Origin: a virus
IMG/VR virus record: IMGVR_UViG_3300033143_002012
Span: 1 to 21,762 of that record
DNA: 21,762 nt
Direction: 5' to 3' (one strand)
In this document: in pieces, positions 11,325 through 21,639 of the stretch
How positions within the stretch are numbered: position 1 is the first letter of the stretch
How the letters are laid out: every line of letters starts with the position of its first letter
Made by a program: the position numbers and the translations under genes
Notes under the pieces: model-generated
Seen by the model: the letters and a program-made list of their open reading frames with translations, nothing else
Databases searched by the model: none
What the model was told of the DNA's origin: nothing

Positions 11325-12371
11325 TTATGCTGGTGTGTCGCCCCGCATCCGTTTGAGGGTGGCTTCGGGTAGAGAGGCCACGTCCTCGTAGGACAGCTTG
11401 TCGATGTTGATCCCGTCCTTGATGCCAGCGGAATCGGCATCGTCGCCGGTACCCTTGGCGTCAGCCGGGCTCTTGTTGGCCGCGTCGGTTGCCTTCTTCA
11501 GCCCAGCCTTCCGGAGTTCATCTTCCTTCTTGGCCTTGGCTTCCGGGTTGTCAGAGGCATCGCCGATGTCCTTGACAGCCTTCTTCGGCAGGACGAAGTC
11601 CATGGCGCGGAGCAGAGCCTGCGTCGGGGTGTACTTGCCGGTGGCAACAAACCCGTTTCTCAGTTCCTGTACCTTGTCCACAACTTCCTGTGAGTAGCCC
11701 TCTGACTCCGGGTTGAACTCGTCGTGGGTGGCTTCGATGTGATCGATGGCCATATCCAGTCGGACCTGCTCCCGGGCGTCGGTGGTGGCGTCGGCTGAGG
11801 ACTCGTCCATATCCATCTGCCAGAGTTCCCGTTCCTTGGCACGGACTTCGCCACGCAGTTCTGCGGCCTCGTCCATCTTGTCGTCTGAGATGGCTTTGTT
11901 GATCGCCTTGTCCAGATTGGCCAGCTCGGTCTCGATTACGCCACGGGCGTCATCGTTCTTGGCTGCCACGACATCTGCCGCCTTGTCCCGGTCAATCTGG
12001 TCGAGCCGGTCCTGAAGCGCCTTGTTCTGACGACTCTTGGCATCCAGACGAGACTTCGGAATCATTGCTTCCTTCTTGTCGTCGTCCTTATCCTCGGCTT
12101 TTGTGTCGGTGTCATCATCGGCTTTCGCGTCAGTGTCCGCATCCTTGTCCGCCTTTTTGTCCTCGGCAGCCTTGTCCTCATCGGCTTTCTTGGCGTCGGC
12201 CTTGGTTTTGTCGTCCGCTTCTTTGTCCGCAGCAGCCTTGTCGTCGATTTCCTTCTGCTCGGCGTCGGTGCGGTGTAGGTTTTCCCTCACCTCGTCTTCG
12301 TCCTCGGGATTGTCGCCACGTGCAGCAGCAACGGCTTTGGGGTCGTCCCAATCAATATCTTTATCAGCCAT
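11325..12371 (-). CDS. Capsid scaffolding protein (putative)
   Basis: The 348-residue product lies between portal and major capsid, the usual place of a scaffold. It is acidic and highly helical. Residues about 30-105 are a low-complexity Asp/Lys/Ala tract (repeated KADxDxKA and DDKKE units), residues 105-225 form probable coiled coil (KSRQNKALQDRLDQIDRD; ETELANLDKAINKAI; ELRGEVRAKEREL), and the end (GINIDKLSYEDVASLPEATLKRM) is a compact helical segment that could bind capsid subunits. No protease motif is seen. The start overlaps the portal stop by one base (TAATG), with GAAGGAG 7-8 bases upstream inside the portal gene. Function is assigned from position and composition. Confidence 0.75.
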   Translation of the reverse strand: MADKDIDWDDPKAVAAARGDNPEDEDEVRENLHRTDAEQKEIDDKAAADKEADDKTKADAKKADEDKAAEDKKADKDADTDAKADDDTDTKAEDKDDDKKEAMIPKSRLDAKSRQNKALQDRLDQIDRDKAADVVAAKNDDARGVIETELANLDKAINKAISDDKMDEAAELRGEVRAKERELWQMDMDESSADATTDAREQVRLDMAIDHIEATHDEFNPESEGYSQEVVDKVQELRNGFVATGKYTPTQALLRAMDFVLPKKAVKDIGDASDNPEAKAKKEDELRKAGLKKATDAANKSPADAKGTGDDADSAGIKDGINIDKLSYEDVASLPEATLKRMRGDTPA

Positions 12372-20021: not shown

Positions 20022-20906
20022 ATGACCAAGAAAACAGCAATAGCCACTGCACTTGACAAAGCCGTTGACCCCGCCGCACAGATTCAGTGTTCTGAAGATG
20101 GGCGGATAGATGAGTACCGCATCAAGACGGAAATCATCGAGGACGTGATCAGCAAGTTCGGTGATGTTGAGAACCTGAGCGAGAACTCCTACAAGCCGTT
20201 CCTCTTTGGAGCCTTGTGCTGGAGTTACAAGTTCAAGCTGGCCCGCAGTATCATCCGCCTTATTGACCAGAACGCTGGTATGGCTGATGCAATCAAGGGT
20301 GAGCAGGTTGAACGCCAGCAGGTCTTGAGTGAAATCATCAAGCGCACTGAAGCGCAGGTTGAGGAACTCCAGAACCTGTACAACTGGGCTGCGACACAGA
20401 CCAAGCCTGATCTGGTACCCGAAGACGAAGACGTAATGTCCAAGTTGCAGGTACAGGCTGAAACTCCGAAGGACGAGATCGAGGAGTATGCAGAGATGAT
20501 GGGCATTACTATCGAAGAGGCAGCTGCTGACCTCGATGGTGTTGCTGATTCCGACACTGAACGCGCTATGAAGCACGGTGATGAGGCTCTCAAGGAGCTG
20601 AAGACCCGTACGACTGGTGAATTCACCGAGGGATTCTTCTTCACTGGCTGGAATGCAGTATCGACGATGGAGAAGATTGCTGAAAAGGCTGAAGTCTATG
20701 CCGAACGCAGCAAGGGTCTCTTCAAGAACAACCGTCGGAAGAGTAAGAAGGCACACTTGGTGGGCAACATCAAGGCCTTCGATGCGATCATGAACGAAGC
20801 GGATGATTTCGCTGTCGCATGGCGCAGGGATCTGGAGATTGAGATACAGAAGGCAGAAGATACTGCCACTGCGGCTCATGAAGGCTCCACCCCAGTACTT
20901 GCATAA
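20022..20906 (+). CDS. Helical acidic protein of unknown function (294 aa)
   Basis: This is the largest rightward gene, with AAGGA about 9 bases before the ATG. The product is strongly helical and acidic, with probable coiled coil at about 90-125 (GEQVERQQVLSEIIKRTEAQVEEL) and a basic patch near 235-250 (KGLFKNNRRKSKKAH). An unusual short motif IEEYAEMMGITIEEAAADLDG at about 152-173 looks like a small helix-turn-helix-like unit. No enzyme motif is seen. A 308-codon frame on the opposite strand is a shadow without a ribosome binding site. Two terminators follow, so this gene ends the transcription unit. Role unknown. Confidence 0.85.
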   Translation: MTKKTAIATALDKAVDPAAQIQCSEDGRIDEYRIKTEIIEDVISKFGDVENLSENSYKPFLFGALCWSYKFKLARSIIRLIDQNAGMADAIKGEQVERQQVLSEIIKRTEAQVEELQNLYNWAATQTKPDLVPEDEDVMSKLQVQAETPKDEIEEYAEMMGITIEEAAADLDGVADSDTERAMKHGDEALKELKTRTTGEFTEGFFFTGWNAVSTMEKIAEKAEVYAERSKGLFKNNRRKSKKAHLVGNIKAFDAIMNEADDFAVAWRRDLEIEIQKAEDTATAAHEGSTPVLA

Positions 20907-20923: not shown

Positions 20924-20960
20924 GAGCACTGGCTGGCAACAGGCTGGTCAGTGCTCTTTT
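20924..20960 (+). terminator. Intrinsic terminator 1 after the 294-aa gene
   Basis: GAGCACTG (20924-20931) pairs with CAGTGCTC (20949-20956) around a 17-base loop and is followed by TTTT. Confidence 0.7.
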
Positions 20961-20984: not shown

Positions 20985-21010
20985 CCCGGGCTCTTCGGAG
21001 CTCGGGGCTT
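20985..21010 (+). terminator. Intrinsic terminator 2, UUCG tetraloop
   Basis: CCCGGGCTC (20985-20993) and GAGCTCGGG (20998-21006) pair with one G-U around TTCG, a very stable C(UUCG)G loop, then GCTTTATTA. The T-run is short, so it may back up the first terminator 25 bases upstream. Confidence 0.65.
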
Positions 21011-21043: not shown

Positions 21044-21341
21044 TGTCACCTCATGTCACCTCATCAAGAACGAGGTGACAGACACCCAAGTCCCTGATCC
21101 ATATCTTATTAAAGCCACAGAACGGTGATTTGTCACCATGTCACCTCATACCCTGAGCCCGAAAGGATACTTAAGGCTTTGCTTATATTGTCACACATGC
21201 ACTACTATACTACTCCTTTCAATTTACATAAATGAAGAGGTGACAAGGTGACAAGCGGCAACATCAGCTATAGGGATCAATGACTTACAGTATGGTCCTT
21301 ATGTAGTTCATAAGGTGACAGTACGAGGTGACAAGGTGACA
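21044..21341. repeat. Iteron-like array of AGGTGACA octamers (putative origin or operator cluster)
   Basis: Ten copies of AGGTGACA or its inverse occur in about 300 bases. Inverse copies start at 21044, 21054, 21131 (ending A instead of T) and 21139; direct copies start at 21073, 21238, 21246, 21313, 21326 and 21334. Several are in tandem at 8- or 10-base steps, and 21054-21062 with 21072-21080 form a 9-bp hairpin. An AT-rich core (about 21160-21235) lies between the left inverse group and the right direct group. There is no gene between 20907 and 21420. Such arrays suit initiator binding at an origin or cooperative repressor binding. Confidence 0.85.
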
Positions 21342-21420: not shown

Positions 21421-21639
21421 ATGCATCCTTTTTCGGTAGTTTTCTTCCATATTCTGACCTTTTGCGCGGGTGGCATGTGCTTTGTCAACCTCGCCAACTT
21501 GGTCACTGTGCAGCAGGATTACGACTATGCATGGTGGAAAGTGGCAGCCTTCCTGATACTGGGTGTCGTGTTCTCTCTTATGACACACGCAGAGAGACGC
21601 TACAAGCCATTCACCCAAGACCGACACCGGCTGGGATAA
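21421..21639 (+). CDS. Small two-helix membrane protein (72 aa)
   Basis: ATG at 21421 is preceded by a modest GGGG site 8 bases ahead; the frame also reaches back to a TTG at 21358 with no ribosome binding site. The 72-residue product has membrane helices at about 4-29 (FFHILTFCAGGMCFVNLANL) and 38-56 (AWWKVAAFLILGVVFSLM), a short loop with acidic residues, and a basic tail (ERRYKPFTQDRHR). No family recognised. It is the first gene after the repeat array, so it may be controlled by it. The next gene begins 2 bases after its stop. Confidence 0.65.
   Translation: MHPFSVVFFHILTFCAGGMCFVNLANLVTVQQDYDYAWWKVAAFLILGVVFSLMTHAERRYKPFTQDRHRLG

Follow-up and report, generated by a model that had tools for sequence, protein, structure and literature searches.

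A two-sided array of GGTGACA iterons is very probably a replication origin in a KPP25-type phage

Genes and repeats at the locus

The window, that is the whole stretch of DNA analysed here, is a complete virus record of 21,762 bases. It codes for a terminase, a portal, a major head protein and a connector, and its TerL is 37% identical to TerL of Pseudomonas phage KPP25. On the minus strand, positions 1-2964 encode a fibre-like protein built from several modules of ~230 aa that resemble one another and each begin near YWRLGEASGTNAVDE. A gene at 11325-12371 (minus strand), in a scaffold-like place between the portal and the major head protein, has a lysine/aspartate-rich low-complexity stretch that also yields a small heptamer cluster in our scan. 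Rfam and tRNA scans of the window returned no match.

The array studied here lies 4.5 kb from terL, between a gene of unknown function in which no helicase domain was found and a small rightward gene (Table 1). The window ends 421 bp past the array and holds no initiator gene of its own, as the record stops before the place where one is expected. The first-pass annotation had described terminators on the left and a promoter-less gene start on the right. Both descriptions held, as two strong terminator-like hairpins end the left gene and a scan for sigma-70-like promoters found none.

Table 1. Features of the array and its flanks in the window.
Feature	Position	Strand	Remarks
Gene of 294 aa, unknown function, left of array	20022-20906	+	Syntenic marker; relatives 61-90% identity
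Two terminator-like hairpins ending the left gene	20924-20956, 20985-21006	+	Strong
Outer left iterons, TGTCACC	21044-21050, 21054-21060	-	10-bp spacing
Lone left-side iteron, GGTGACA	21074-21080	+	
Inner left tandem pair, TGTCACCaTGTCACC	21131-21145	-	8-bp period
AT-rich core, presumed melting region	21147-21237	none	91 bp, 63% AT
Inner right tandem pair, GGTGACAaGGTGACA	21239-21253	+	8-bp period
Outer right iterons, GGTGACA	21314-21320, 21327-21333, 21335-21341	+	
Small gene (~72 aa) right of array	21421-21639	+	Kept in G001 and G002

Ten GGTGACA heptamers were found within 298 bp (21044-21341). Nine of them lie inside the full octamer AGGTGACA and the tenth, at 21131, belongs to the variant TGGTGACA, so that the ten octamers reported at first are strictly nine plus one variant, while the count of ten is exact for the heptamer. 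Every one of the nine exact AGGTGACA copies of the window falls within the array, compared to 0.94 on average and at most 4 per shuffled window (100 shuffles). Furthermore, 300 dinucleotide shuffles of the window never gave more than three GGTGACA per 300 bp, and no heptamer, whatever its sequence, exceeded four in 40 shuffles, in agreement with the initial statement that the density is far above chance. Outside the array, the window has five more GGTGACA (2542, 6071, 6413, 8202, 13387), each copy standing alone as had been noted.

The orientation of the sites also follows the initial description of inverse copies mainly on the left and direct copies on the right: the heptamers at 21044, 21054, 21131 and 21139 are on the minus strand, and the one at 21074 and the five right-hand sites are on the plus strand. 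At the centre, TGTCACCaTGTCACCT and AGGTGACAAGGTGACA are separated by 91 bp and form two inverted tandem pairs with an 8-bp period, facing outward, with more GGTGACA copies outside both. The core between them is indeed AT-rich, at 63% (77% in its best 30 bp) vs 45% for the window.

Conservation of the array and the initiator gene of its relatives

Two close relatives, G001 (59.5 kb, TerL 94% identical) and G002 (10.7 kb, TerL 91%), carry the array at the same place. In a three-way alignment, the heptamer columns are 97% identical to the window in each relative, while the other columns are 72% (G002) and 53% (G001) identical. A copy number that is not conserved in relatives had been named beforehand as evidence against a functional array; we observed that nine of the ten sites are kept in G001 and nine of the ten in G002. 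The iteron at 21044 is lost at that place in G002, and the one at 21074, kept in G002, is lost in G001, which keeps both outer left iterons. The heptamers of both inner pairs are invariant and the outer right heptamers are kept in both relatives. Because the base preceding the heptamer varies among relatives, the conserved word is GGTGACA. Within the core, the conserved blocks are GAAAGGATACTTAAGG (21161-21176; one change in G001) and TATACTACTCCTTT (21206-21219), the second block kept across the three-way alignment being TATACTACT. G001 has a single GGTGACA cluster, its only array, and the GC skew around it gave no usable signal, being confounded with gene strand.

The first-pass annotation had proposed searching relatives for an initiator gene near the array, and G002 provided one. 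In this contig, 1.1 kb downstream of the array, on the same strand and past small genes, an open end of 338 aa represents the start of a primase gene. The fragment matches PHROG 16950 ('DNA primase'). L123, another terminase relative, encodes a full-length protein of 765 aa with a DUF5906 domain (PF19263), whose N-terminus shares 54% identity with the fragment. Our search for a full-length initiator of the window's own type found only this partial copy, which comprises the N-terminal 338 aa, whereas its helicase and DNA-binding parts would lie beyond the contig end. G001 stops right at the array, and its opposite end carries a truncated SF2 helicase and a family-A DNA polymerase; therefore, the missing piece would hold the primase gene. 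Five of the six relatives longer than 56 kb, KPP25 among them, encode DUF5906, and the sixth lacks just that stretch.

AlphaFold models of the L123 initiator (pLDDT 54, a low value, used for fold class only) and of the initiator of L127, which is linked to a GGTGACA array (pLDDT 67.5), were compared with known folds. Both matched first the C-terminal region of NrS-1 PrimPol, followed by the SaPI5 primase-helicase, PriRep1 with dsDNA, ASFV PrimPol and poxvirus D5; a sequence search of the PDB with the L123 initiator gave no match. In the L127 model, the final 110 residues run helix-helix-strand-helix-helix-strand-strand, with a pLDDT of about 75-80 over most of them, an order that we interpret as typical of a winged helix. 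Neither Rep_3 nor RepA_N domains were found among the proteins scanned, namely part of the window genes and the ends of G001.

Arrays beside initiator genes and iteron turnover

Scanning viral contigs for the 16-mer AGGTGACAAGGTGACA and for inverted pairs revealed further GGTGACA arrays, with Prim-Pol/DUF5906, VapE-like, DUF3987 or CHC2/Toprim primase genes detected beside them by Pfam. Most of the initiator-linked arrays follow the gene, no more than 600 bp from its 3' end. Among 16-mer-scan loci with at least five clustered copies, 6 of 21 had an HMM-detected DUF5906/VapE-sort helicase, vs 0 of 43 loci with at most two copies (Fisher p = 7e-4), and four or five more of the 21 have an initiator by other evidence (L008, L082, L097 and L060; L025 by kinship). 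Six arrays (L011, L044, L047, L068, L080 and L128) have no recognised initiator in the available contig sequence. The core between the inner sites measures 83-107 bp in 18 of 19 arrays (142 bp in L060), and its AT content exceeds the locus mean in 18 of 19.

This association comes partly from loci chosen by the word GGTGACA, whereas two other tests were not so chosen, one on cultured phages and one on TerL relatives. In the former, 14 cultured phages and satellites were selected solely for having a DUF5906/VapE-sort helicase, and 6 of them have arrays of a heptamer of their own, located at the 3' end of the helicase gene or shortly past it: TGATGCA in Staphylococcus phage StauST398-2, TGGATAC in Enterococcus phage AE4_2, GTTGCAG in Paenibacillus phage TonyLawson77, GTCCGAA in Burkholderia phage AH2 and in BcepNazgul, and TAGTTTT in the satellite Javan652.

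Several side observations came from the same scans. GGTGACA arrays stand beside VapE-like, DUF5906, DUF3987 and CHC2/Toprim genes in L004, L017, L053, L008, L060/L112, L082 and L166, and occur in proviral and chromosomal settings, Clostridium cadaveris included; the sharing of one word across initiator classes may reflect convergence or else a DNA-binding domain in common. Arrays of the same layout were also seen without a recognised initiator nearby in L068 (3998-4396; G003), where the array runs into a GpA-type terminase gene, in L047 (12773-12984) and in L044 (596-843). A pattern scan of genome contigs returned mostly host intergenic hairpin minisatellites, the informative matches being those in C. 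cadaveris and Prevotella. These minisatellites, intergenic tandem runs of GGTGACAA followed by a reversed run, many per genome (L133, L134, L136, L148, L163, L171 and others, from Planctomycete, Chloroflexi and other MAGs), are dispersed, and their long uninterrupted runs led us to set them aside as different from the phage array. Likewise, a three-copy group (L007 and relatives) was rejected as a short conserved site around a small gene and not the array type. In this separate group of phages (L007 8136-8168, L010, L014, L022, L031, L040 and L075), the site GGTGACAaGGTGACAgtttcttgacTGTCACC may serve as an operator or as a different kind of binding site. Literature searches for GGTGACA phage iterons, and for DUF5906 with 'replication origin' and 'phage', returned nothing relevant in the first case and no paper in the second.

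Among the terminase relatives, the place of the array is kept while its word changes. L122 and L123 (TerL 71% identical to that of the window) have eight TGTACGA in ~300 bp at the syntenic place and no GGTGACA cluster there. KPP25 has an array of TGTTACGA with an 8-bp tandem pair, a ~109-bp core and an inverted copy. Its distance to terL is 4.6 kb, vs 4.5 kb in the window, and it lies ~12 kb from the initiator gene of KPP25. A motif-blind scan of TerL relatives found heptamer arrays of ~300 bp, each built on another word: GGTACAC in L244 (9 copies), TGGAACA in L245 (10), TGTGTGC in L264 (12), TGTGTGA in L235 (11), TGTGCAC in L230 (7) and ATGTATT in L216 (7), all 2.1-4.9 kb from terL. It also found seven copies 7.6 kb from terL in L223 and a weak array of five copies in L217. 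At the threshold used, no array was found in some relatives, such as L219, L220 and L236.

KPP25 (L117, NC_024123) carries two similar TGTTACGA arrays, at 26395-26826 and 58258-58543 of the record (L117 6396-6827 and 38259-38544). They are ~80% identical over their best stretch, and a separation of 31.9 kb puts them almost exactly at opposite points of the circular 64.1-kb map; they are perhaps two origins or an ori/control pair.

The arrays of L264/L298 (L264 5495-5792) and L235/L299 (L235 2497-2774) can be aligned as homologues base for base. Across the 12 sites of this alignment, TGTGTG shows no difference at any of 72 positions, the next four bases agree in only 9 of 45 compared columns, and identity in the remaining region is 77%. 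Eleven of the 12 sites went from TGTGTGC to TGTGTGA or in the opposite direction, while one outer site reads TGTGTGC in both arrays and looks like a relic. Such a concerted change of 11 of 12 sites would be the trace expected of a change in initiator specificity. In the closer initiator pairs, the C-termini appear more divergent than the helicase domains (30% vs 43% identity for KPP25-L300, 24% vs 40% for KPP25-L303), which agrees weakly with such a change.

Interpretation and comparison with known systems

Taken together, the array, its conservation, its core, its association with initiator helicases in related and unrelated phages and the turnover of its iteron at a fixed place, all read from sequence, indicate that it is very probably a phage replication origin. 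We are confident in the fuller proposal that a DUF5906 (D5/SF3-like) primase-helicase binds GGTGACA, melts the core and loads itself there, and an initiator of a class related to those of SaPI and NrS-1 is the best explanation of the data. From these observations we infer the protein that binds and the steps from melting to firing. The phage-encoded protein would bind the iterons through its C-terminal DNA-binding domain, and the inverted tandem pairs flanking the 91-bp core would place two oligomers facing each other. These oligomers would melt the AT-rich core and self-load, serving the family-A polymerase of the phage as both replicative helicase and primase, and replication would fire.

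The first-pass annotation had left the choice between an origin and a multi-site operator, and the former is strongly favoured, with heptamers conserved amid drifting spacers and a primase-helicase gene 1.1 kb past the array in G002. The array does lie upstream of a rightward gene block and after terminators, and tandem sites suit co-operative binding, as would be expected if a phage repressor or activator on the heptamers controlled the genes from 21421. However, the promoter scan found no candidate, an origin is the better fit for ten sites spread across 298 bp on either side of an AT-rich core, same-layout arrays in other phages lie mostly just after initiator genes, and the arrays come without a linked regulator gene, so that we consider this control improbable; an operator role of the initiator itself (autoregulation) may exist. 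The similar distance to terL in relatives and the L068 array that adjoins a GpA-type terminase gene could point to a packaging (pac) or terminase-recognition site, but this is very improbable given that same-word arrays accompany replication genes in phages where no terminase is close by, and that the layout stands beside VapE helicases in satellites and a Clostridium chromosome. It is scarcely credible that the array consists of GGTGACAA units with no specific binder, like the intergenic minisatellites or hairpins of hosts: although MAGs carry many such tandem runs with a reversed run nearby, those are long and uninterrupted, often within GGTGAGGG-like sequence, whereas the phage copies are isolated, spaced and in register over 298 bp in relatives while spacers change, and G001 has a single cluster. 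All three explanations are less consistent with the data than a replication origin.

The origin reading gains further from the layout of two iteron sets around an AT-rich core beside initiator helicases in many phages, and from relatives that keep the locus and change the iteron. Such relatives amount to a natural series of a single origin whose letters change all together, and the L264/L298-L235/L299 series makes a joint specificity change of an initiator and ten dispersed sites directly testable, with cultured KPP25 as a bench system at hand. We tentatively suggest, as a possibility short of an even chance, that KPP25-like origins keep their place and layout while all iterons are rewritten along with the C-terminal domain of the initiator. 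The driver would be selection on the specificity of replication, which would let a phage escape origin-directed nucleases, satellites or relatives that co-infect the host, and GGTGACA would have been reached independently by several initiator classes.

PICI origins consist of two iteron sets around an AT-rich region (PMC6092414), and a 2018 survey knew this layout only from PICIs, which later papers may extend; it is now seen in KPP25-type podovirus-like phages and, judging by sequence, in many other phages. The window is not a PICI element, as terminase, portal, head and connector genes are present, and window-type phages are large with their own DNA polymerase, whereas PICIs are satellites. 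Nevertheless, the array is predicted to work like a PICI/SaPI origin (SaPIbov1, SaPI1, EcCICFT073; Rep or Pri-Rep), with which it would share the broad helicase class of the initiator and shares element-specific iteron words and the layout itself, its inverted tandem pairs being invariant in relatives. PICI origins lie immediately 3' of rep, while the window-type array precedes the initiator gene by 1.1 kb in G002 and that of KPP25 is far from its initiator. Strict membership among PICI origins thus fails because, in this type of phage, the array does not immediately follow the 3' end of the initiator gene.

According to the accessible part of PMC7581432, SaPI Rep and SCCmec Cch2 bind iterons via a C-terminal domain. 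Cch2 resembles the proposed initiator as a D5-type helicase whose C-terminal domain recognises short repeats; its AAGTG iterons are three direct repeats just downstream of the gene, and that part of the paper reports no two-sided array with an AT core, unlike the window. The GGTGACA-linked initiators of L127 and L004 find their best match, by fold and by sequence, in NrS-1 PrimPol (PDB 6k9c, 6lrb). The L123 homologue of the G002 fragment, a DUF5906 protein, has a fold like the NrS-1 and SaPI5 primase-helicases, at low model confidence.

The alpha protein of phage P4 has a Toprim-type primase and acts on type I iterons, GGTGAACAG, at ori and crr, the latter being also needed. It is alike as a primase-helicase initiator that binds short iterons, with a word that looks similar to GGTGACA. 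Unlike P4 alpha, the L123 and KPP25 initiators are devoid of a Toprim domain, and G001 has one array only instead of ori and crr. Finally, the PLE of Vibrio cholerae, faced with the ICP1 nuclease Odn, relies on a RepA_N initiator and ~30-bp repeats, unlike the heptamer array, but sets a precedent for iteron restructuring and replication-module swapping under an origin-directed nuclease (PMC8263062).
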